NCBI GenBank assembly: GCA_029260555.1
Contig: JAJDCZ010000044.1
Location: forward strand, 1 to 64,000
Source of the DNA: Phycisphaerales bacterium
GTDB lineage: Bacteria > Planctomycetota > Phycisphaerae > Phycisphaerales > UBA1924
Reading direction: 5' to 3'
DNA length: 64,000 nt
Below the pieces are notes generated by a model that saw only the letters and a program-made list of their open reading frames with translations, did no database searches and was not told the DNA's origin. Made by a program: the position numbers and the translations under genes. Shown here piece after piece: positions 13,241-53,749 of the stretch. Each line of letters begins with the position of its first letter. Position 1 is the stretch's first letter.

Positions 13241-13275
13241 CAGAATGAACCTCGCCCGAGTTGAAGGATTCCCCA

Positions 13276-14103
13276 ATGAGCAAATGCTGCATCGCGTGTG
13301 TTGAATACATCAACACACTCCCCCTCATCCAAGGCCTCGATCAGATCAAAACCATTGCCCTCAAACCCACTACACCCGCTCAGATAGCTGATCTCGTTCT
13401 CAAAGGCCAGGCAGACATCGGCCTCGTATCACTTGTGGATATCGCCAGACATCACAATCAACTCACCCCCCTGCCCGTAGGCATGATCGGCTCGATGGGT
13501 CCGACACTCACCGTCCGTCTGTTTTCATCCACGCCTCTGGATCAGATCACACAGATCGCCTGTGATCAGGAAAGTCACACCTCGGTCATTTTGTGCCAGT
13601 TGCTACTTAAAAAAATGTATGGCATCACACCCCAAATCACGCCTCTCAACGCCAGTGATCTTGGCAAAGGCACACCCTGGCCTCAAACGCTGCTTCTGAT
13701 CGGCGACAAGGTCGTCACCAACGCTCCTTCTGAATCCTGCTACACCCATCAGCTGGATCTCGGGCAGGCGTGGACCAGCAACACCGACCTGCCATTCGTG
13801 TATGCCATGTGGGCATGCCGCAGCGATCGTTTGGACGACCCCACAATCCAGAACGCCTGCACCGTGCTTGATCATCAACGCAGGCACAACGCAACACGGC
13901 GCAGCTGGATCGCATCAACGCACGCCCAGGCTCACAACTGGCCCGTGAACCTTGCTCAGCAATATCTGTGTCAACTGCTTCGCTATGACGCAAACGATCT
14001 GGCCCGCGCCGGTGCTCAGCGCTTTATCACTGAGGCAAGCGAGCTTGGCCTGCTGGCTCATGCACCTGATGTGTTTGCTGAGTGCTGCGCGACGGGGTGT
14101 TAG
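13276..14103 (+). CDS. mqnA: Chorismate dehydratase of the futalosine menaquinone pathway
   Basis: MqnA dehydrates chorismate to 3-enolpyruvylbenzoate, the first committed step of futalosine-route menaquinone synthesis. The 275-residue product has the MqnA/MqnD periplasmic-binding-protein-like fold. Visible signs are VEYINTLPLIQGL at the N-terminus, LKGQADIGLVSLVDIARH, the SMGPTLTVRLFSS stretch, SHTSVILCQLLL, and DLGQAWTSNTDLPFVYAMW, which forms the substrate pocket in this family. An AAGGA ribosome site seven bases before the ATG at 13276 makes that start better than the TTG at 13261. The following gene begins five bases after the stop, so they form an operon. A menaquinone pool fits the quinone-linked redox module at 49458-53749. 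Confidence 0.9.
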   Translation: MSKCCIACVEYINTLPLIQGLDQIKTIALKPTTPAQIADLVLKGQADIGLVSLVDIARHHNQLTPLPVGMIGSMGPTLTVRLFSSTPLDQITQIACDQESHTSVILCQLLLKKMYGITPQITPLNASDLGKGTPWPQTLLLIGDKVVTNAPSESCYTHQLDLGQAWTSNTDLPFVYAMWACRSDRLDDPTIQNACTVLDHQRRHNATRRSWIASTHAQAHNWPVNLAQQYLCQLLRYDANDLARAGAQRFITEASELGLLAHAPDVFAECCATGC

Positions 14104-16598: not shown

Positions 16599-18219
16599 CA
16601 GAACCTCGCAAAAATGCTGCCTCGGCCACATCAATCGCGCGCATCAGTGCCGCAGCCTTGTTCACCGTCTCCTGATACTCCGCATCGGCATCTGAATCCA
16701 CCACGATCCCTCCCGCAGCCTGAATGTGATACACCCATGTCCCACCCTCAGCATCATGCCTGTCAACAGGCACCACCATCGTGCGAAGCGTGAGCGCAAT
16801 ATCCATCTGACCATCAAGCCCCACATACCCCACGCCCCCGCCATAAGGTCCACGCCGAATCGGCTCAAGCTCATCAATAATCTGCATCGCCCGAACCTTG
16901 GGCGCCCCTGATATCGTCCCCACAGGCAGTGCCGCCCGCAACGCATCAAACGCACCAAACCCCGGCCTCAACACACCCGTCACCGTTGACGAAATGTGCA
17001 TCACATGGCTGTACCGCTCAATCTCCATCACCGCAGGCAACTGAACCGACCCGGGCACGGAAACTCGCCCAACATCGTTCCGCCCCAGATCCACCAGCAT
17101 CACATGCTCTGCCCGCTCCTTGTGATCCGCCAACAGCTCTGCTTCAAGCTCACGATCCTGCGCTTCAGTCCTGCCTCTTTTTCGCGTGCCCGCCAAAGGC
17201 CGATTTGTCACCACCAGCTCATCGCCCCGACGCCGCACCCGACACAAAATCTCCGGACTCGAAGCCACCAGCAAACACCCCTGCGCTTGCAAATACACCA
17301 TGTATGGACTGGGATTTACCACACGCAGCGCCCGATACACATCAAATGGATCAATCGTCGACTTTCTCTCAAACCGCTGACCCAGCACCACCTGAAACAC
17401 ATCGCCCGCTGCAATGTACTGCTTGGCACGATCAACCATCTCCCCGTGCTGTTCTCTGGTGATGTTGGAACTTGACTCGCCCACCGGGGCAGCGGGATCA
17501 AACCATCCCGAAGCCAAAGGCTTCGCGTGCCTTTGTATCTGCTCAACTTGCATCTCAAGAGCCTCAATTGCCCTCTCATACAAATCCTGCGCATCATCGC
17601 CAGCCCTGACACGCACACACCGCACCACAAACACCAGCTTGCTCACATGGTCAAACACCACCACCATGTCATACAACCCAAAGTGCGTGTCCGGCAACCC
17701 GCGATCATCCTCAGGCGACCCGTCAAACGACAACCCCACCGGCTCGGCATACCGCACCGTGTCATACGAGGCATACCCCACCCAGCCACCCAGCATCGCA
17801 TCAGGAAACTCGATCCCCAGCACCCCCTCACCCAACTGCTCACCAGGATTGACAAACCGCAAACTCGCACTGATTCGGCTCGGCACCTCCAGGGGGTCCT
17901 CAACTCGCATCTGCTGCCTGGTTCCCGCTCGATGATCCACCACCACCACTTCATGCTGATGGGCGATCACCTCCACCGCAGGCTGAGCACCCAGAATCGA
18001 ATATCGACCCTGCTGATTCCCGCCTTCGACAGACTCCAGCAAAAACGACGGTGCCGACCGCTCGTCCGCAGCCACCAACCTCCGATAACAAAGCACCGGC
18101 GTCAGCTGATCCGCCAACAGCCCCATCCCCACAGGCACCACCAGCGTCTTGCCATCAGGCCACTCACGCCGGGCTTGTTCCACACATTCAACGAACTGTT
18201 CGCAAGTTGGTATCGTCAC
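16579..18219 (-). CDS. trpE: Anthranilate synthase component I
   Basis: TrpE converts chorismate to anthranilate with ammonia or TrpG-supplied nitrogen. At 546 residues it has the normal length. The tryptophan feedback site is present as LLES near residue 60 and NPSPYMVYLQ near 310. Catalytic-domain signatures are intact: LAGTRKRGR, DLGRNDVGRVS, MEIERYSHVMHISSTVTG, GTISGAPKVRAMQIIDELE, GGGVGYVGLDG and AAGGIVVDSDADAEYQET. No trpG, trpD or trpC is adjacent, so the pathway genes are scattered. The kinase gene overlaps its 3' end. Because the protein retains the LLES allosteric pair, it is TrpE rather than PabB. Confidence 0.95.
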   Translation of the reverse strand: MTIPTCEQFVECVEQARREWPDGKTLVVPVGMGLLADQLTPVLCYRRLVAADERSAPSFLLESVEGGNQQGRYSILGAQPAVEVIAHQHEVVVVDHRAGTRQQMRVEDPLEVPSRISASLRFVNPGEQLGEGVLGIEFPDAMLGGWVGYASYDTVRYAEPVGLSFDGSPEDDRGLPDTHFGLYDMVVVFDHVSKLVFVVRCVRVRAGDDAQDLYERAIEALEMQVEQIQRHAKPLASGWFDPAAPVGESSSNITREQHGEMVDRAKQYIAAGDVFQVVLGQRFERKSTIDPFDVYRALRVVNPSPYMVYLQAQGCLLVASSPEILCRVRRRGDELVVTNRPLAGTRKRGRTEAQDRELEAELLADHKERAEHVMLVDLGRNDVGRVSVPGSVQLPAVMEIERYSHVMHISSTVTGVLRPGFGAFDALRAALPVGTISGAPKVRAMQIIDELEPIRRGPYGGGVGYVGLDGQMDIALTLRTMVVPVDRHDAEGGTWVYHIQAAGGIVVDSDADAEYQETVNKAAALMRAIDVAEAAFLRGSDGASAS

Positions 18220-18291
18220 AGCACACAGTGTAGTGCGTTGGATTCTGCTTCACACTCGCCACCCCCGCTTCGATTTGCCGATGGATCAACC

Positions 18292-20319
18292 ATGCCCACC
18301 CCACCCCACCACCTCTTCCCACCACGACCCACCCTCGCTGGCCACCGCATCGCAGTGTTGCTCGCCCTGTTGACAACACTGGTGCTCAAGACCCTCCCCG
18401 CCTCTGCCATTTTGCTTCAGCAGGATCAGCCCGCGATCGATCCACGCACCCATCCTGTACTGAATCTCGGTCAGCGTGCCGCAACCACTCGCGCCATCGC
18501 CAGCATCTTTACCACCGTCATCATCGTCGAAGATGATCGATCATTCCTCAGCGCCCTGCAAACATGGACGCCAGCATCTCGTTTTCCCATCCTCTTTGAC
18601 GATGGCTCATCCATTGCCCACGAACACAACGCCCGCTTCGTCCGCGCTTATCAACCCCAGCAGATCCTGCGCTACAAAGTTCCCCAGGACGACGACACAT
18701 CCAAAAACCTCTCGCTCGAGCACATCGTTGCTCAGACCTGGAGCACGCCTCAGGCATCTGACTCTGACTCGCCGAATCTTCCCCCATCACTGACAGATCA
18801 CTACAGCACCCTGAATCACACCCCTCTGGGCATCGTCGTGACCGATCCTGACGACCCCGCCCGCCTTGCTGGAGCAGCCCTCGCCTCTGCCTATGGCCAG
18901 CTTCTCATCACCACCAAACTCTCCTCAAACCCCGTCGGTGTCCTTCACTACAAACGCGCCCAGGCCATCAACACTCAAATCATCAATGCTGCCAAAGCCT
19001 CGGGTTATGACTGGCGAGCCCTGGGCGATGACCTCGACGCCATCACCCTCTGCGCCTCCATGCCTGCCCGCACACGCATCAACGAAAAACTCTGGGTCGC
19101 CACCTCTGATCTTCTGGGCCGCATCATCCCCGATACCGACCCCCAACGCGCCATCAAAAACGCACCACGATGGGCATGGGCTTCACAGATCATGGGTTCC
19201 ACATCCCAGACGGTCTACGCAGCCATGTGCTCGCTCTTTCTTGAACCCAGCTCCGCATTCCTGTTTGATGGCTACCCAAACTCTGAACCCTGGAATCAAT
19301 ACGACGCCACACTCGCCAGCCAGCTCCTTGTACAGGCTCGATTCAAAACCGAACTCTTCGACTCCCCCACCAACTCTGCCCGGACATGGAAAACCCGTGC
19401 AACCCGCTCCGTTGATGCCCAGATCATCCTCATCAACTCCAAAGGCAACGCCGATTTCTTTGACCTTGAACCCGGCCGCTGCAATCCTGGCGACATCCCC
19501 CAACTCCAAACCCCCGCTGTGCTCCACATGGTCCACTCATGGTCTGCCACCAGACCCACAGACCGCAACACCGTCGCAGGCCGATGGCTCGAGCGAGGCG
19601 CCTTTGCCTACATTGGCTCCGTGCAGGAACCCTACCTCCAGGCCTTTGTCAAAACCCCAGGCATCGCAGTGCGCATGGCTTCAGGCGTCCCCTGGGGTGC
19701 AGTGGGCAGACTCTGGAACCCCGCAACAGGCGCCAGCGATACCGTCTGGAAAATCGCCACCCTGGGTGACCCCCTCTGGACCATCGCCCATCCCGGTAAA
19801 CGCATCTCAACCGCCTTGCCCATAACCACCAACACCACCAGCCTCAGCGCTGACATGAAACAAGCCCTGCACGCTGGCGACTATGCCCAGGCCCTCTCCC
19901 TGCTCACGCTCATGGGGCGCGACCAGGACGCCCTTCGCCTGATCAACTCAATCCTCGCTCAAAACGCCCTGCTCCCAGCCTCCGCAGCCCAAGGCATCCC
20001 CCCCGCATTCAGACTCAACAACCCCGACCTGCTCATCACCTGCTACAAAAAACTCTCCCCAGCCCAGGCTGACGACCCCCAACTCCGCGACCTGCTCTTT
20101 CTCACCATCACACCATCACTTGAATCAACCACCGACCTGACCATCCTCGGGCTTGCACGCCAGAATGTTCGCCAGGGTCAGCTCGTGGCAGATGCCAAAG
20201 CTGTATACAAAGCCACCAAACGCATACAAGGCGCACCCGCTGCCCAGGCATGGCTCAAAAATCTCATCAACAAGACCCCCAACAAAAAAACACAAACCGC
20301 GCTCAGCAAGATCCGCTAA
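18292..20319 (+). CDS. Secreted protein of unknown function
   Basis: The 675-residue product starts with a clear Sec signal peptide (hydrophobic LLALLTTLVLKTLPASA, cleavage near residue 36). The mature part is a mixed alpha/beta protein. The stretch HMVHSWSATRP, followed about 30 residues later by RWLERGAFAYIGSVQEPYL, resembles the core of gingipain/C25-like or TIGR03790-type folds, in which a GA.AYIGSV.EPY segment follows the active-site strand, but I see no catalytic Cys. The C-terminal 180 residues are helical and repeat-like, possibly TPR-type. The ATG at 18292 is supported by the signal peptide; the frame stays open 765 bases upstream only because it runs antisense to trpE. Confidence 0.75.
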   Translation: MPTPPHHLFPPRPTLAGHRIAVLLALLTTLVLKTLPASAILLQQDQPAIDPRTHPVLNLGQRAATTRAIASIFTTVIIVEDDRSFLSALQTWTPASRFPILFDDGSSIAHEHNARFVRAYQPQQILRYKVPQDDDTSKNLSLEHIVAQTWSTPQASDSDSPNLPPSLTDHYSTLNHTPLGIVVTDPDDPARLAGAALASAYGQLLITTKLSSNPVGVLHYKRAQAINTQIINAAKASGYDWRALGDDLDAITLCASMPARTRINEKLWVATSDLLGRIIPDTDPQRAIKNAPRWAWASQIMGSTSQTVYAAMCSLFLEPSSAFLFDGYPNSEPWNQYDATLASQLLVQARFKTELFDSPTNSARTWKTRATRSVDAQIILINSKGNADFFDLEPGRCNPGDIPQLQTPAVLHMVHSWSATRPTDRNTVAGRWLERGAFAYIGSVQEPYLQAFVKTPGIAVRMASGVPWGAVGRLWNPATGASDTVWKIATLGDPLWTIAHPGKRISTALPITTNTTSLSADMKQALHAGDYAQALSLLTLMGRDQDALRLINSILAQNALLPASAAQGIPPAFRLNNPDLLITCYKKLSPAQADDPQLRDLLFLTITPSLESTTDLTILGLARQNVRQGQLVADAKAVYKATKRIQGAPAAQAWLKNLINKTPNKKTQTALSKIR

Positions 20320-20337: not shown

Positions 20338-20871
20338 TCAGCGTTTAAACCTGCTGACAGGTGGCAACAGCCCGATCAGAATACAAAATCCCGCACCCGC
20401 AATCAGCCAAAGCCGGGCACGATCGTCCATGGCAAGCTCCGCCAGCATCGAGTCAGGCTCAGGTTGTGCATACAGCGCCAGCTCCGTTGCCACCGGAGGC
20501 TCAAGTGCACGAAATACCGAAACATCCAACCGCCCTGACGATTCAGCCAAAAGATACCGATGCCCCACAGGCACAAGATTCAGCTGCTCGGCAGCCAGCG
20601 CCTTGATCAGCGTCGGGTCATGCTGTTCCAAAGCGGCCAGATACCTCGAATGACGCTCCAGCCGATCAATGCGATGCTCTTCAAGCCCCAAAACCGCATC
20701 ACGCTGATTCCGGGCATTGCGTACATCCTGGTGAGCTGGCAAAAGGACCACCGCAGCGATCAGCGTAAGCCCCGCAACCAGAAAAAGCCACCCCGCATCG
20801 ACCCTGGCATGTAATCCCTCAGCACTCCTGGCTGATTCCCCGATCGACTCTGCGTGAATAGGTGTGGTCAT
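20338..20871 (-). CDS. Conserved-type two-pass membrane protein of unknown function
   Basis: A 177-residue protein with two membrane helices (about 27-46, VDAGWLFLVAGLTLIAAVV, and about 150-170, LWLIAGAGFCILIGLLPPV) flanking a roughly 100-residue soluble segment. The segment begins with a charged coiled coil (RNARNQRDAVLGLEEHRIDR). The ATG at 20871 has GGGGGA about five bases upstream and is preferred to the in-frame upstream start at 20964, which would overlap the ketosynthase gene. It converges with the secreted-protein gene and diverges from the ketosynthase. I recognise no family. Confidence 0.7.
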   Translation of the reverse strand: MTTPIHAESIGESARSAEGLHARVDAGWLFLVAGLTLIAAVVLLPAHQDVRNARNQRDAVLGLEEHRIDRLERHSRYLAALEQHDPTLIKALAAEQLNLVPVGHRYLLAESSGRLDVSVFRALEPPVATELALYAQPEPDSMLAELAMDDRARLWLIAGAGFCILIGLLPPVSRFKR

Positions 20872-20983: not shown

Positions 20984-22324
20984 ATGAGCCAAAGCGTGGT
21001 CATCACAGGATTGGGCGTTCTCACAGGCCTTGGGCAAGGTGCCCCTGCTTTCTGGGAAGGGCTTTGTCAACAGCGATCAGCCCTCAAACCTGTCCAGTCG
21101 TTTGACGCTTCAGAGTTTGCCAGTTCCATAGCCAGTGAAGTCAAAGACTTCTCAGCCCGCACAATGGTTCCCAAAAGCTATCGCAAAGCTGTCAAAATCA
21201 TGAGCCGGGATATTCAACTCGCCGTCGGCGCAGCTCAACTTGCCGTGCTTGATGCCGGACTGATCACACGGGCCTCACCTGAGGTCATCGCAGAAGATAC
21301 CCAGACAACCTACCCCGCCGATCGCATCGGCTGTCAGATCGGCGCGGGCCTTATTGCAGCAGAAACACCCGAGCTTGCCATGGCTCTGGCAACCGCCAAA
21401 GCTGACGATGGCTCGTTCAGCCCCCACCTCTGGGGCCAATCCGCGATGGACAACCTCCCGCCCCTCTGGCTCTTGAAGTACCTCCCCAACATGCCCGCTT
21501 GCCATGTTTCCATCATCCACGGAGCCCAAGGCCCCAGCAACACCATCACCTGCTCTGAAGCCAGTGGCCTCCTCTCCGCAGGCGAGTCCCTCCGCGTCAT
21601 CCAGCGCGGCTCAGCAGATGCATGCTTCTCCGGAGGCACCGAATCCAAAATCAACCCCATGGGTCTCATGCGCCATCATCTCGGTGGCAGACTCGCACCC
21701 ACCGACCCGTCAACCTCAGCTCCAGACCTGATCAAACCGTATGACCCGGATTCACCGGGTCAGCTCATCGGTGAAGCTGCAGGCGTCGCCATCGTCGAAT
21801 CTCAAACCCATGCCAAACAGCGCCAGGCAAAGATGTACGCCCGTCTGCTGGGCTTTGGAGCGGGCCAGTCTACCTTTGGCAACATCCCGCCCCTGCCTGA
21901 TATCCAGTCCTCAGGCACAGAGACAGGCCTCGTCTTTGCCATTCAGGATGCCTTGAACGAAGCTGGCATCAGCCCCGATCAGATCGATGTCATCGTGCCT
22001 CACGCCTCAGGCATCGGGTTTATGGATGCCCGCGAAGCCCAGGCCTTGCGCGAAGTCTTCAGCTCCGCCTTGACCAAAATCGAACTCATCACCATCACAC
22101 CCAATGTCGGTGATGCCCTGGCAGGCCAGAGCAGCCTTCAACTGACAGCCGCTGCCCTCGCCCTCAAGAACCAGCAACTCCCCGCACGAATCAACCCCGG
22201 CAATCCCCCAAGCGACCTCCGCGCCGAACAAATCTCAGCACGCAAGGCTTCATTGGGATACGCTCTGGTGTGTACCAATGCTCTGGGTGGTCAAAATGCC
22301 GCAATGGTACTTGAGCGACTGTGA
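20984..22324 (+). CDS. Ketosynthase-like protein with degenerate active site (chain-length-factor-like)
   Basis: The fold is that of a FabF-type beta-ketoacyl-ACP synthase (SVVITGLGVLTGLGQG start, GPSNTITCSEASGLL nucleophile region, GSADACFSGGTES). Aligned without gaps to FabF from GPS onward, the catalytic Cys position falls on Glu192, with a Cys two residues earlier (190) that is out of register. The first active-site His is kept (His340 in VPHASG), but the second His and its Lys are lost (ITPNVGDALAG instead of KSMxGHLLG). This pattern recalls chain-length factors, the catalytically silent partners of ketosynthases. An intact ketosynthase lies 620 bases downstream. The ATG at 20984 precedes the conserved N-terminal strand. 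Confidence 0.85.
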   Translation: MSQSVVITGLGVLTGLGQGAPAFWEGLCQQRSALKPVQSFDASEFASSIASEVKDFSARTMVPKSYRKAVKIMSRDIQLAVGAAQLAVLDAGLITRASPEVIAEDTQTTYPADRIGCQIGAGLIAAETPELAMALATAKADDGSFSPHLWGQSAMDNLPPLWLLKYLPNMPACHVSIIHGAQGPSNTITCSEASGLLSAGESLRVIQRGSADACFSGGTESKINPMGLMRHHLGGRLAPTDPSTSAPDLIKPYDPDSPGQLIGEAAGVAIVESQTHAKQRQAKMYARLLGFGAGQSTFGNIPPLPDIQSSGTETGLVFAIQDALNEAGISPDQIDVIVPHASGIGFMDAREAQALREVFSSALTKIELITITPNVGDALAGQSSLQLTAAALALKNQQLPARINPGNPPSDLRAEQISARKASLGYALVCTNALGGQNAAMVLERL

Positions 22325-22379
22325 GTCACCCCCGGCATAGGCTTTTATTCAGACAACAAACAACTACGGAGATCCGACC

Positions 22380-22937
22380 ATGAGCTACGAAGACAGAAAC
22401 TACGACCGAGGCTATCGCTCATCAAACCCCTCAGGCTCCCATGGCAACAAAGGACACCAAAGGCGTGGTGTCCCCCTTTCTGATCTTGATCCTGAACTCA
22501 CCGAAGTTTCCCGCCTGCTCATCGGCTGCGCCATTGAGGTCCACCGAACCCTGGGCCCGGGCTATCCCCTTGATATCTACACCAAAGCCTTGTGTCAGGA
22601 ACTCAAAGAAGAAGAAATCGACTTCCTCCAGAACCATGAAATTCAAGTTTCCTACAACGACGAAATCATTGGCACCGTCACCACAGACCTGTTCATCGAT
22701 GACAAGTTTTTCGTCAAGCTCATGGCAAGGCCCGGCGAGATCGGCCGCGCCGAACGCTCTGAGCTTCGCGCCTTTCTCAAAGCTGGCGATCTTGAACTGG
22801 GTCTGATCGTCAACTTCGCTGAACGCCGTCTCAAGGATGGGCTGGTGCGTGTTCTGAATCTGGACAAAATCAATCTTGCCCATGAAGATGAACACCACAA
22901 TGATGACGACGACGATGAGTATGACAACGAGGATTGA
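22380..22937 (+). CDS. GxxExxY-family protein with altered motifs
   Basis: The 185-residue product matches the GxxExxY family (RLLIGCAIEVHRTLGPGYPLDIY, then TDLFIDDKFFVKLMARPG and the LGLIVNFAERRLKDGLVRV C-terminal strand). The name-giving Glu is Asp (G-YPL-D-IY). The nuclease-like Asp...V-E-L-K-A pattern typical of the family reads V-K-L-M-A here, so the presumed catalytic acid and lysine are missing. The protein also has a disordered N-terminus (1-30) and a very acidic Asp-rich C-terminal tail after about 165. It sits between two ketosynthase genes in the same direction, seven bases before the second, suggesting one transcript. Confidence 0.85.
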   Translation: MSYEDRNYDRGYRSSNPSGSHGNKGHQRRGVPLSDLDPELTEVSRLLIGCAIEVHRTLGPGYPLDIYTKALCQELKEEEIDFLQNHEIQVSYNDEIIGTVTTDLFIDDKFFVKLMARPGEIGRAERSELRAFLKAGDLELGLIVNFAERRLKDGLVRVLNLDKINLAHEDEHHNDDDDDEYDNED

Positions 22938-22943
22938 TCACCC

Positions 22944-24275
22944 ATGAGTGATGTTCGTGTTGTCATTACAGGCACCGGCTGGGTGACGCCTCTGGGATGC
23001 GATGTACCCTCCGTCTGGAAACGCATGATCGCAGGAGATTCAGGCATCGCTCCCGTTGCCCAGTTCCCCGCCTCAAGCTATCCAACCAACTTCGCTGGCG
23101 AATCCGAAGATGTCAATCTTGATGCCATCTTGCCCAACCCCAAACCGCACCGCCACGCGCTGCGCAATGTTCGCTTTGCCCTCGCTGCAGCAGCCCAGGC
23201 GTGGAGCCAGGCCGGGCTGAGCACCCATAGCCTGACCAACCCCAGGCGCTTTGGCATGTATCTTGGTTCCGGCGAAGGCCCCCCGGACTTTGGCCCGTTC
23301 GCTGAAGCAAACCTCAAAAGCTGGAAGGCAGATTCTCGCAGCGTCGACTATGCCAACTGGGCACAATCCGCCCAAAAACTCTTCACCGTTCACAATGAGG
23401 TCGGGCAGGAACCCAACATGTCCCTGGCCCATCTGGCCACCGCCTTTGGCTGCCAGGGCCCCGCCTACAACTGCATGACCGCCTGTGCTGCAAGCACCCA
23501 GGCACTTGGCGAAGCCTTTGAAATCATCCGGCATGGCGATGCTGATGCCATGCTCACAGGCGGTGCCCATTCCATGATTCACCCACTGGGCATGTCAGGC
23601 TTCATCCGCCTCACCGCCATGAGCACCCGGTGTGACAACCCCACCACCGCTGCTCGACCCTTTGATGCCACGCGCGATGGCTTTGTCATGGGCGAAGGTG
23701 CAGGCATGATCGTGCTCGAATCACTCCAGCACGCTTTGGACCGGGGCGCAACACCGCTGGCAGAAGTCGCAGGCTATGGCTCAACCGCCGATGCCTACCG
23801 CATCACCGATATGCACCCCGATGGTCAAGGCGCAGCCTCAGCCATGCGCATGGCTCTCAAACAAGCTGGCATCGAACCCCGCGAGCCCGCCTCAGACAAC
23901 CGCCCCCCCATCGACTACATCTCCGCCCATGGCACAGGCACCAAAGAAAATGACTCCACCGAGTCCAATGCCATCCACACCGTCTTCGGCCCCCAGGCAC
24001 ACAACCTCGCTGTCAGCTCCATCAAATCCATGACAGGCCATCTCATCCAGGCTGCCGGTGCTGTCGAACTGATCACCTGCGTGCAAGCCATCCAGACCGG
24101 CTGGCTCCCCCCCACCATGAACCTCTCCGAGCCTGATGTCGAATGCGACCTGGATTACATCCCCAACCAGGCACGCGATCTCAACGCCAACAACGGCGTC
24201 GAAGTCTGCCTCTCCAACAGCTTCGGCTTCGGCGGCCAAAACGACACCGTCGTCATCCGCAAGTTCCACCCCTGA
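22944..24275 (+). CDS. Beta-ketoacyl synthase, active type
   Basis: A 443-residue FabF-like condensing enzyme that joins an acyl-thioester to malonyl-ACP. The catalytic set is complete: Cys181 in MTACAASTQ, His329 in ISAHGTGT, Lys361 in SIKSM and His366 in TGHLIQAAGA. It also carries DATRDGFVMGEGAGMIVLE and NSFGFGGQND at the C-terminus. It starts seven bases after the GxxExxY gene and forms a gene trio with the degenerate ketosynthase upstream. No acyl carrier protein, ketoreductase or malonyltransferase is in the window, so any heterodimer would use partners encoded elsewhere. A role as a housekeeping FabF is the main alternative. Confidence 0.92.
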   Translation: MSDVRVVITGTGWVTPLGCDVPSVWKRMIAGDSGIAPVAQFPASSYPTNFAGESEDVNLDAILPNPKPHRHALRNVRFALAAAAQAWSQAGLSTHSLTNPRRFGMYLGSGEGPPDFGPFAEANLKSWKADSRSVDYANWAQSAQKLFTVHNEVGQEPNMSLAHLATAFGCQGPAYNCMTACAASTQALGEAFEIIRHGDADAMLTGGAHSMIHPLGMSGFIRLTAMSTRCDNPTTAARPFDATRDGFVMGEGAGMIVLESLQHALDRGATPLAEVAGYGSTADAYRITDMHPDGQGAASAMRMALKQAGIEPREPASDNRPPIDYISAHGTGTKENDSTESNAIHTVFGPQAHNLAVSSIKSMTGHLIQAAGAVELITCVQAIQTGWLPPTMNLSEPDVECDLDYIPNQARDLNANNGVEVCLSNSFGFGGQNDTVVIRKFHP

Positions 24276-49457: not shown

Positions 49458-50930
49458 GTGAAATACGGCTTTCTCATTGATCACGACCGCTGCATCGGGT
49501 GCCATGCCTGCACTGTTGCGTGCAAAGCTGAGAACAATGTTCCCGTGGGCGACTTTCGCACCTGGGTTCAATATCAAGAGCAAGGCACATTTCCTGCTGT
49601 CAAACGCCACTTTGCGGTATTACGCTGCAACCACTGTGACAACGCACCTTGCGTGCGCATCTGTCCGGTCAATGCACTGGAAAAACGAGCTGATGGCATC
49701 GTTGATGTTGATCGCGATGCCTGTATTGGCTGCCGGGCATGCATGCAGGCCTGCCCCTATGACGCGATCTATCTTAATGACGACACGGGTTCGATTGAAA
49801 AATGCCATTACTGTGCCCACAGGGTCGAAAATGGTATCGAGCCTGCCTGTGTGGTGGTCTGTCCTGAGAAAGCCATCATCGCTGGCGATCTGAACGACCC
49901 TCGTGCAAAAATCGCCCGGATGATTGCAGAGAATGACACGCTGGTGCGCAGGCCTGAACAGAACACTGGCCCCAATGTACATTACAAGGGGGTCGAGCCA
50001 ACCATGCTCGAGCCTGGCAGTGCAACACGCCCGGATATGTATATCTGGAGCGATCGCCCGCCTGAAAAGCCCGAGGCGTGGCCAATCAGCTTGCCTGTGA
50101 TCGAAGATGCACGCACGGTGCTGGATGTCGGACATCGCGTGGAGTGGAACTGGCCGGTAGCGATGTATCTGGTCACCAAATCCATCGCAGCAGGAGCAGC
50201 CATCCTGGCACCATTTGCAGGCGTGCTGGGTTTGCGAGGGGCTGTGCAGAACTTTGCACCGGAGATCATCGCGCTGGTTTTTACACTCATCACGCTGGGG
50301 CTTCTGGTTGAAGATCTTTCCAGACCCAGCAAGTTCTTTCGACTTTTAACCAGACCAAACTGGCGCAGTTGGCTGGTGCGTGGCGGCGTGATCCTCGGCG
50401 GCTTCGTGGCGATCGAATCAGTGGCACTGATCTTGCGATTCGTGCAGATGGATGCGCTGGCGGACATGGCGCGGTGGGTGGGTTTGCCGATGGGTGTGAT
50501 GGCTGCGGGATATACCGCGTTTTTGTTCAAGCAGTGTGAGGGTCGCGATCTCTGGCAGTCTGAGGGGCTGTTCAGCCATCTGCTGATTCAGGCGGTGCTG
50601 TGCGGGGCGTTGGTGTTTTTGCCTTTCAGTGAGCATCGCTCAACGCTTGAATGGTTTGTCATTATCCCGGCGATTTTGCATTTCATGTTTGCACTGCACA
50701 ATCATCTGGGCGAGCATGAAACGAGCAACGCCTTGCAAGCGGCTGCATTTTTAGGCACGATCCGGCTGGGGCCGATGCGTGCATTGCGTGGATCGGTGCT
50801 GATGGGTGTCACGCTTGTGTTGATACTGGTGTTCTTTGTGCCGATCGGGGCGATGGTTGCGGGGTTGGCAGGGTTGTATGCGTATGAGTGGGCGTTTGTG
50901 CGTGCAGGGCAGTTGCCGCCGTTGTCGTAG
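49458..50930 (+). CDS. Fused four-cluster FeS protein and NrfD-type membrane subunit
   Basis: The 490-residue protein joins two usually separate subunits of complex-iron-sulfur molybdoenzymes. Residues ~1-150 are a DmsB/PsrB-type ferredoxin with four cysteine clusters (CIGCHACTVACK, CNHCDNAPCVRICP, CIGCRACMQACP, CHYCAHRVENGIEPACVVVCP). After a linker, ~225-485 is an NrfD/PsrC-type quinone-binding membrane domain with about eight helices. The start is a GTG at 49458 and no ATG precedes the first cluster. The molybdopterin subunit follows 23 bases later. Together they suggest a menaquinone-linked respiratory reductase or dehydrogenase. Confidence 0.9.
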   Translation: MKYGFLIDHDRCIGCHACTVACKAENNVPVGDFRTWVQYQEQGTFPAVKRHFAVLRCNHCDNAPCVRICPVNALEKRADGIVDVDRDACIGCRACMQACPYDAIYLNDDTGSIEKCHYCAHRVENGIEPACVVVCPEKAIIAGDLNDPRAKIARMIAENDTLVRRPEQNTGPNVHYKGVEPTMLEPGSATRPDMYIWSDRPPEKPEAWPISLPVIEDARTVLDVGHRVEWNWPVAMYLVTKSIAAGAAILAPFAGVLGLRGAVQNFAPEIIALVFTLITLGLLVEDLSRPSKFFRLLTRPNWRSWLVRGGVILGGFVAIESVALILRFVQMDALADMARWVGLPMGVMAAGYTAFLFKQCEGRDLWQSEGLFSHLLIQAVLCGALVFLPFSEHRSTLEWFVIIPAILHFMFALHNHLGEHETSNALQAAAFLGTIRLGPMRALRGSVLMGVTLVLILVFFVPIGAMVAGLAGLYAYEWAFVRAGQLPPLS

Positions 50931-50953
50931 GTGATTTTTCAGGGGTTGATCTG

Positions 50954-53749
50954 ATGAGCAAGAGTGCACCAATGACGACGACCGAGCTGGAATCGTTCCC
51001 GCCAATGGATCAGTGGGATGACTGGATGGAGCTTGATGCTGACAGTTGGCCCAAGCGTGTTGAGAAACGCTATTCACTGATTCCGACGACTTGTTTTAAT
51101 TGTGAAGCAGCCTGCGGGCTGGTGGCGTATGTGGACAAGAGCACGGGCACGGTGCGCAAGCTTGAAGGCAATCCACATCATCCCGGATCGCGGGGCCGAA
51201 ACTGCGCCAAGGGGCCGGCAACGCTGAACCAGATCAATGATCCTGAGCGCATTTTGTACCCAATGAAGCGCGTGGGTGAGCGCGGCTCGGGCCAGTTTGA
51301 ACGCACAAGCTGGGATGAAGTACTCAACACATTTGCAACAACCATTCGCAAGGCCTTGCAGGAAAATCGCCACGATGAGATCATGTACCATGTGGGCAGA
51401 CCCGGTGCTGACGGTTTCATGGACCGGGTGCTGAGAAGTTGGGGGATTGATGGACATAACTCGCATACCAATGTGTGTTCATCGTCTGCGCGGGTGGGGT
51501 ACACGCTTTGGACCGGGGCGGATCGGCCCAGCCCGGATCACGAAAATGCCAAGTTCATCCTGCTTTTGTCAGCCCATCTTGAAACCGGGCACTATTTCAA
51601 CCCGCACGCGCAGCGGATCATGGATGCCAGGGAAAAAGGTGCAAAGATCTGCGCGGTGGATATCCGCCTGTCCAACACAGCGTCGATCGCTGATGAATGG
51701 ATCTGCCCCTGGCCCGGCACGGAATCAGCCTTGCTGCTGGCGATGGCGCATGTGATTCTCAATGAGGATCTCTTTGATGCTGAGTTTTTAGAGCGCTGGG
51801 TGGACTGGCGCGCGTTTCTAAAATTCAAGGCACCTCAGCGCCCGGTTTCGTTTGCGAGCTTTATCGAAGCTGTCAAGGAGCATTATGCAAAGAACACGCC
51901 TGAAGCCGCAGCTGAGGAAACGGGTGTTCCTGCGGAACAGATTGTGCGGGTTGCCATGCTTATTGGTGATGCGGGCAGCCGGTTTGCCAGTCATGTGTGG
52001 CGGAATACGGCTGCGGGCAATCTTGGTGGGTGGCAGGTGGCGCGGTGTTTGCAGTTTTTGACGGTGCTGGTGGGTGCTGTGGGAACGGTCGGGGGGACAA
52101 ACCTGAACTCGCGGGACAAGTTTGTCGCAGCACCGTTTGCATCGCCTCCAGCGGTGAATCGGTGGAACGAGCTTTTGTATCCGATTGAGTATCCGCTGAG
52201 TTATCACGAGTTGTCGATTTTACTGCCTCACTTTCTGCTTGAGGGTCGGGGTAAACTCAGTGCGTATTTCACTCGCGTATACAACCCGGTGTGGACCAAC
52301 CCGGACGGGATGATGTGGGAGCGTGTGCTTCGTGATGAATCGAAGATCGGTCTGCATGCTGCGCTGACGCCGGTATGGAGCGAGACGGCGCAGTATGCGG
52401 ATTTCGTTTTGCCAATGGGCGTGGGGGCTGAGCGACATGATCTGGTTAGTCAGGAGACGCACGCTGCACGATGGCTGAGTTTTCGTCAGCCTGTGACGCG
52501 GGTCTTTGCAGAGCGTCAGGGCGCACAGGTTGAATATACCCATGAGACAAATCCCGGTGAGGTGTGGGAGGAAGACGAGTTCTGGATTGAGCTGAGCTGG
52601 CGGATTGACCCTGATGGCGAGCTTGGGATTCGCAAGTATTACGAATCGCCTTATCGTGAGGGCGAGAAGATCACGGTGCATGAGTATTACCAGTGGATGT
52701 TTGAAAACTCTGTACCGGGGTTGAAGGAGGAGGCTGCCAGGCTTGATTTGTCGCCTTTGGAATACATGCAGCGGTATGGTGCGTATCTGGTGGATGACAA
52801 CACTTATGAAGGGCATCGAGAAGAGCTTGGTGAGGCGCAGCTGGCGGGGACGGCTGTGGATGCTGATGATGGCACGATTTTGCGTGACGGAAAGCCCGTC
52901 GGGCTGATGGTTGATGACAAACCTTGTCATGGATTCAATACGCCATCGCGTCGGCTTGAGATGGTCAGCCCGACGCTGGCTGACTGGGGCTGGCCTGAGC
53001 ATGATGTGCCCGGGGAGATCAAGAGCCAGGTGCATCGGGACAATCTGGATGCGGACAAGGGTGTGTTCTGTCTGGTGCCTACCTTTCGCCTGCCCACGCT
53101 GATCCATACGCGTAGTGCTAATTCCAAATGGCTTTGCGAGCTTTCCAACTGCAACCCGGTCTGGATCAATACGGAAGATGCTCAGCGAATGGGCATCAAG
53201 ACGACGGACCTGATCCGGATTTCGACGAGTATTGGTCACTTTGTCAATCGCGCGTGGGTGACCCAAGGCATCAGGCCCGGCGTGGTCGCCTGTTCGCATC
53301 ATCTGGGACGCTGGAGGCTCTTTGATTCAGCGGGGACAGACCGCTGGGCCAGCGCCAAGGTGATCAAAGAGGAGCTCGCTGAGGGTTGTTTTCGTTTTCG
53401 GCGGGTTGAGGATGTTGGGCCTTTTGTCAGCGATGATCCTGATTCAAAGCGCATCTGGTGGACCGATGGAGGCGTCCACCAGAACCTGATCTTCCCCGTT
53501 CAGCCCGACCCCGTCTCAGGCATGCACTGCTGGCATCAGGTCGTCACGGTTGAACCAGCAAAAACGGGCGATTGCTATGGCGATGTGCAAGTTGACACCA
53601 ACAAATCCATGGCTCAATACAGAATATGGCTATCAAAAACACGCCCGGGACCGGGGCCTGGGAATCTGCGAAGGCCGCTGTGGCTGGCGCGAGCGGTGAG
53701 GCCCACGGACCAAGCGTATATCTTTGGGAAACCCGGCGAGCAGGGTTGA
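50954..53749 (+). CDS. Molybdopterin oxidoreductase catalytic subunit
   Basis: The 931-residue subunit belongs to the DMSO reductase family. An N-terminal [4Fe-4S] site (CFNCEAACG with a fourth Cys in GRNCAKG) precedes the Mo domains; SHTNVCSSSARVG near 175 provides the probable Mo ligand Cys. Other parts are SAHLETGHYFNPHAQ, TPVWSETAQYADFVLPMG near 480 and the C-terminal dinucleotide-binding stretch with VWINTEDAQRMG. No Tat signal is visible, so the active site may lie on the cytoplasmic side, unlike most Psr/Phs/Ttr enzymes. The ATG at 50954 has AGGGG nine bases upstream. With the fused FeS-NrfD protein it forms a two-gene respiratory module. The substrate cannot be deduced. Confidence 0.9.
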   Translation: MSKSAPMTTTELESFPPMDQWDDWMELDADSWPKRVEKRYSLIPTTCFNCEAACGLVAYVDKSTGTVRKLEGNPHHPGSRGRNCAKGPATLNQINDPERILYPMKRVGERGSGQFERTSWDEVLNTFATTIRKALQENRHDEIMYHVGRPGADGFMDRVLRSWGIDGHNSHTNVCSSSARVGYTLWTGADRPSPDHENAKFILLLSAHLETGHYFNPHAQRIMDAREKGAKICAVDIRLSNTASIADEWICPWPGTESALLLAMAHVILNEDLFDAEFLERWVDWRAFLKFKAPQRPVSFASFIEAVKEHYAKNTPEAAAEETGVPAEQIVRVAMLIGDAGSRFASHVWRNTAAGNLGGWQVARCLQFLTVLVGAVGTVGGTNLNSRDKFVAAPFASPPAVNRWNELLYPIEYPLSYHELSILLPHFLLEGRGKLSAYFTRVYNPVWTNPDGMMWERVLRDESKIGLHAALTPVWSETAQYADFVLPMGVGAERHDLVSQETHAARWLSFRQPVTRVFAERQGAQVEYTHETNPGEVWEEDEFWIELSWRIDPDGELGIRKYYESPYREGEKITVHEYYQWMFENSVPGLKEEAARLDLSPLEYMQRYGAYLVDDNTYEGHREELGEAQLAGTAVDADDGTILRDGKPVGLMVDDKPCHGFNTPSRRLEMVSPTLADWGWPEHDVPGEIKSQVHRDNLDADKGVFCLVPTFRLPTLIHTRSANSKWLCELSNCNPVWINTEDAQRMGIKTTDLIRISTSIGHFVNRAWVTQGIRPGVVACSHHLGRWRLFDSAGTDRWASAKVIKEELAEGCFRFRRVEDVGPFVSDDPDSKRIWWTDGGVHQNLIFPVQPDPVSGMHCWHQVVTVEPAKTGDCYGDVQVDTNKSMAQYRIWLSKTRPGPGPGNLRRPLWLARAVRPTDQAYIFGKPGEQG

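Follow-up and report, generated by a model that had tools for sequence, protein, structure and literature searches.

The window, a stretch of 64,000 nucleotides from a Phycisphaerales bacterium, carries on its forward strand three codirectional genes encoding KS-A, a FabF-fold protein of 446 residues (20984..22324), a PDDEXK_3/GxxExxY-family protein of 185 residues with an acidic tail (22380..22937), and KS-B, a FabF-like ketosynthase of 443 residues (22944..24275). They are separated by gaps of 55 and 6 bases. The initial annotation had treated the two ketosynthase genes as a pair; both open reading frames are present, but the gene between them had been omitted. The ATG start of KS-A agrees with alignments of its homologues, whereas a GTG upstream at 20864 does not. 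Both ketoacyl synthase Pfam domains are found in each protein, with 94.9 and 54.4 bits for KS-A and 154.9 and 120.9 bits for KS-B. Elsewhere in the window lie a PF02621-family protein of menaquinone biosynthesis, which points to the futalosine route (13261-14103), a 930-residue open reading frame that has no Pfam family and matches TIGR03790 weakly, in its later part only (17527-20319), and a respiratory-type pair consisting of a 4Fe-4S/NrfD protein followed by a molybdopterin oxidoreductase (49458-53749).

Alignment with E. coli FabF places E192 (codon 21557..21559), H340, T372 and D377 of KS-A, and C181 (codon 23484..23486), H329, K361 and H366 of KS-B, at the positions of C163, H303, K335 and H340. 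The active site of KS-A is degenerate, with Glu in place of the catalytic Cys and the Lys and second His gone, and that of KS-B is complete, exactly as had been read from the sequence at the outset; Cys181 is the predicted acyl-accepting nucleophile. Cys190 of KS-A was considered as an alternative nucleophile and rejected, as it aligns two residues before the catalytic position and is Ala, Ser or Leu in several relatives. KS-B scores 444 bits against the fabF equivalog model TIGR03150 (NCBIfam), below the cut-off of 493.75, and 434.2 bits against the subfamily NF005589, above the cut-off of 387. It retains the FabF gating residues D265 and F400, which on sequence grounds fit a reducing cycle and release after every round.

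Of 120 class genomes searched with a KS-A profile, 116 gave matches above 350 bits; the raw tally was 119, from which we excluded three genomes whose best match (E values of 1e-66 to 1e-72) falls in the range of ordinary FabF. Nearly all of the 60 relatives have a KS-A orthologue, in most cases with KS-B adjoining, the named loci belonging to Phycisphaerales, Phycisphaerae and other planctomycete metagenome bins. The catalytic Cys position is occupied by Glu (120), Asp (8), Gln (4) or another residue (3) in the 135 aligned KS-A rows, in which a few genomes are counted twice through two loci or different tools. With 120 rows having Glu and a further 12 having Asp or Gln, Glu192 goes beyond chance, and the remark in the initial annotation that Glu departs from the usual Gln of chain length factors (CLF) extends to the subfamily, where Gln is confined to those four rows. 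The His303 position is His in only 35 of the 135 rows, so that the His retained by the window copy (H340) is not conserved in the subfamily, and the His340 position is mostly Asn or Asp. The Cys-His-Lys-His set of KS-B is intact in all 121 complete rows. The most conserved stretch of KS-A is LWLLKYLPNM, which contains Trp162 (codon 21467..21469), the equivalent of FabF Phe133 at the predicted subunit interface and Trp in 134 of 135 rows.

Apart from the pair and the middle gene, no conserved neighbours were found in 40 loci, and the small clusters that recur there overlap the ketosynthase genes and look like shadow open reading frames. A PDDEXK_3 protein lies between the two ketosynthase genes at most loci of the window's family. 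The window's copy scores 81.1 and 79.5 bits against its family models (cut-offs of 22 and 35 bits) and is the only PDDEXK_3 gene found in this genome. Its D...ExK motif is broken, reading VKLMA where relatives have VELKA. By motif reading all 14 members of this type have Met or Leu for the catalytic Lys, whereas most of the 19 stand-alone PDDEXK_3 members of the class that were read have the Lys, and the motifs are largely preserved in the stand-alone members. The GxxExxY motif is also mostly lost in the middle-gene type, and several members combine an Arg/Gly-rich N-terminal part with an acidic C-terminal tail. The middle protein is probably dead as a nuclease, and may be a non-nuclease scaffold or a nucleic-acid binder. 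In one genus, no fewer than four genomes (G023, G072, G090 and G103) have the divergent type (members of alignment A3, loci L256-L285) at another place.

The predicted structure of KS-A alone (pLDDT 87.8) adopts the FabF fold, with 1j3n as its best match (VIA Z 59.6), and E192 stands at the N-terminal end of helix 191-207, the nucleophile elbow. As the window's KS-A and KS-B are not in frame with each other, the two subunits were modelled together for a relative (L044) as a fused KS-A/linker/KS-B polypeptide with AlphaFold2, using an alignment of 22 paired in-frame KS-A/KS-B read-throughs taken mostly from fifteen further genomes of the class. The fused model has a pLDDT of 91.2 and a pTM of 0.92, with a disordered linker of 31 residues (443-473). 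Two independently placed domains would be unlikely to reach such a pTM with a disordered linker, and the model hence supports a KS-A/KS-B heterodimer. The LWLLKYLPNM stretch has a pLDDT of 49-65 in KS-A alone and of 91-92 in the relative's fused dimer. In a VIA search with the fused model the chains listed match the KS-B half only, and the search is silent on the dimer arrangement. Structural alignment, dimer prediction and a survey of other planctomycetes had all been proposed in the initial annotation; the survey found the pair class-wide, and the dimer prediction stands for the relative rather than for the window's own pair. We suggest that KS-A and KS-B would form an obligate heterodimeric ketosynthase, in which KS-A, itself catalytically dead, may complete the interface between the subunits through Trp162 and the LLKYLPNM stretch.

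The two genes stay adjacent in nearly the entire order and in the pairs checked across the class; the exceptions include no fewer than four genomes from the window's own family that have KS-A and KS-B on different contigs. Certain other families of the phylum have several copies of KS-A-type and KS-B-type genes, unlinked to one another, and this would suit a KS-A that works by itself, as a homodimer that binds acyl groups or ACP and serves as a regulator or carrier, adjacency then reflecting shared ancestry or regulation. We regard such a role as unlikely, given the retained adjacency, the complementarity of residues between KS-A and KS-B and the confidently predicted fused dimer. Loci L165-L174 and L179-L182 come from families that have at least two KS-A-type genes, apart from each other and with the Cys replaced by Asp, Glu or Ser, and in L166 (6066-7367) a KS-A-type gene adjoins a canonical fabF and an ACP-like gene.

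In FabF the region-1 contacts with ACP are made by Lys65, Arg68 and Lys69, and in FabF and FabB the non-crosslinked subunit supplies most of the ACP contacts (PMC7138838). The basic segment PKSYRKAVKIMSRDI of KS-A (21170..21214) is a predicted ACP docking patch, in which K68 and K71 correspond to FabF Lys65 and Arg68. All 135 KS-A rows have Lys at the first of these positions and Lys or Arg at the second. The same patch is mostly lost in KS-B, giving mean segment charges of +3.5 for KS-A and -0.7 for KS-B, and the docking charges are already missing from KS-B of L175 and L176. In the window's KS-B this segment, NLDAILPNPKPHRHALRN, remains fairly basic, hence the docking asymmetry is a family trend that is weaker in the window. 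KS-B also carries Glu111 (codon 23274..23276) at the position of FabF Ile108, with Glu in 114 of 115 KS-B rows and Ile in FabF; Ile108 shapes the acyl pocket of FabF, and the I108F substitution lowers long-chain elongation (PMC5206705). From these residues we infer an ACP-docking role for KS-A, an effect on chain length and a reducing cycle for the pair. KS-A would provide the main basic docking surface for a dedicated ACP that feeds the KS-B site, where the acyl chain would be held on Cys181 and condensed with malonyl-ACP.

A candidate for this ACP comes from deep relatives. The operon in L177 encodes a FabZ-like protein, FabG, ACP, a second FabZ-like protein, KS-A and KS-B, and that in L183 is the same without FabG. 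In L177 (9084-11947) a GH3-family and a methyltransferase-like protein come after the ketosynthase operon and are possible hints to the product. In the window's genome, relatives of the operon ACP (60% identity) and of both FabZ-like proteins lie together on another contig (C7:68812-70277), away from the ketosynthase pair, and the module is therefore split. The initial annotation had reported no ACP nearby, which is true of the window's own contig; the cognate ACP is found elsewhere in the genome. In a sample of 199 genomes of the phylum, with KS-A called above about 290 bits, the ACP accompanies KS-A in 31 of 32 genomes and is absent from all 167 genomes that lack KS-A (Fisher p ~2e-35, uncorrected for kinship). 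This co-occurrence is strongly structured by kinship, which accounts for part of it. In the proposed cycle the keto group would be reduced by a FabG and dehydrated by the FabZ-like enzymes encoded with the ACP at C7:68812-70277, and the KS pair would carry out elongation in a second type II fatty-acid-synthase-like system of Planctomycetota.

The ordinary set is also present in this genome on contig C32, which has fabF and an ACP gene and, close to its end, fabH with fabD-, fabG- and plsX-like genes. Ketosynthases with Gln in place of the Cys are able to decarboxylate, and KS-A could accordingly be imagined as an enzyme in its own right, a malonyl-ACP decarboxylase of the KSQ type in which an acid replaces Gln and whose product is the acetyl-ACP primer. 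Some deep KS-A members (L165, L177 and L183) do retain His-Lys-His. The KSQ type is marked by Gln for Cys together with both catalytic His, and we rejected it for the window copy, in which E192, H340, T372 and D377 stand at the four positions, Lys335 and His340 being replaced. Across KS-A the variable His303 and the mostly Asn or Asp residue at His340 mean that the decarboxylating histidines are gone, and FabH, present in 61 of 61 class genomes, already gives a source of primer, so that we consider this reading very improbable.

In a maximum-likelihood tree KS-A and KS-B are sister clades, apart from canonical FabF, and four type II polyketide synthase (PKS) KS and CLF pairs form a separate clade (100/98). 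These pairs come from plasmid-borne clusters of three Streptomyces and one Azospirillum; the tree, rooted at its midpoint, has one CLF on a long branch and covers no sequences of the aryl polyene, ishigamide or AntD/AntE systems. Among the KS-A rows the deepest (L175 and L176) keep Cys-His-Lys-His, and other early-branching rows have Asp or Glu with His-Lys-His or His-Lys-Asn. From the tree and these early rows the pair looks like the outcome of an independent duplication, with stepwise loss of catalysis in the partner. In L175 (7071-9820) and L176 (6767-9334), both of family f36, Cys-His-Lys-His is present in both subunits, a FabZ-like gene lies beside the pair, and L176 has an ACP gene as well; these pairs possibly represent the state before decay.

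The same evidence bears on whether the genes are a true type II PKS KS/CLF pair that has lost its cluster and makes an aromatic or polyene polyketide. The anatomy is the same, and a 2023 catalogue of KS-CLF pairs includes Planctomycetes among other phyla (PMC10132072); set against this, the tree puts the pair outside the KS and CLF clade, its distribution in the class is near-universal rather than patchy, and no cyclase or aromatase occurs in the neighbourhoods read, leaving this origin little chance of being correct. The likeness to KS-CLF pairs drawn in the initial annotation survives as a functional analogy, in the pairing of an active with a degenerate subunit, the fused model and the division of catalytic and docking residues between the subunits. 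It does not extend to membership, given the tree, the acidic residue in place of Gln, the FabF gating residues, and ancestral neighbours (FabG, two FabZ-like dehydratases and an ACP) that are not cyclases.

Collectively, we think it probable that the pair is an obligate heterodimer serving as the elongating enzyme of a second fatty-acid-synthase-like system, with KS-A as a dead, ACP-docking subunit that would act like a chain length factor, and with an origin in a FabF duplication of its own. To a broader claim we would give even chances, namely that this is a Planctomycetota KS/CLF-like heterodimer independent of type II PKS, forming the core of a class-wide fatty-acid-synthase-like system with its own ACP, and that it arose through docking asymmetry while both Cys were present (as in L175 and L176), then replacement of Cys by an acid, then decay of His-Lys-His. 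Ideas on how an active ketosynthase becomes a dead partner such as the chain length factor usually draw on a single ancient event, and a second, independent case with living intermediates would, if true, make the steps of decay testable. The pair would also point to a conserved lipid or polyketide pathway in almost every member of the class, whose parts (the KS pair, ACP and two dehydratases) can be named, so that its product can be sought.

We found no literature on the pair as a partner system, on its ACP or on its separate origin, in a search outside which most subscription journals lay, and no paper associated with PDB 9s5h, an entry with two KS-like chains. FabF paralogues with an acid for Cys seem to be already known, and the pairing, pathway and origin seem undescribed. 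A table by Rattray (2009) lists two FabF paralogues of Rhodopirellula baltica, RB3714 and RB4527, with Asp and Glu respectively at Cys163 (PMC2649909). Judged from these published residues rather than from their sequences, both are likely members of the KS-A subfamily; they were treated there as FabF paralogues of unknown substrate in the context of ladderanes, and not as partner subunits.

FabF (KASII) shares its fold with KS-A and KS-B, and KS-B has all its catalytic and gating residues; KS-B differs from it in the Glu at Ile108 and the sub-cut-off equivalog score, and KS-A in lacking the catalytic residues. AmcF-AmcG of cispentacin biosynthesis likewise combines an active KS with a KS-fold partner that lacks the motif, and there the heterodimer has been shown (PMC10698177), although AmcG is without some secondary structures whereas KS-A has the full KS fold. 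The ishigamide Iga11-Iga12 (PDB 6kxd) and aryl polyene ApeO-ApeC systems are, like the one proposed here, reducing systems in which a KS-CLF works with a ketoreductase and a dehydratase, a comparison made by description as their sequences lie outside our tree. In Iga11-Iga12 the ACP binds mainly the CLF, and ApeC is a single thiolase domain of about half the size of a full-fold protein such as KS-A with its 446 residues (PMC8358021). The type II PKS KS-CLF of actinorhodin (PDB 1tqy) similarly has adjacent active and nucleophile-less ketosynthases of the thiolase fold, the heterodimer being a prediction in our case. Unlike the CLF, KS-A has Glu or Asp rather than Gln, groups with KS-B in the tree rather than deriving from the KS/CLF duplication, and occurs without genes of an aromatic pathway; the cognate ACP gene is not in the window but in the operon of deep relatives and, in this genome, on another contig. 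Furthermore, Asp265, absent from the actinorhodin KS (PMC7138838), is kept in KS-B.
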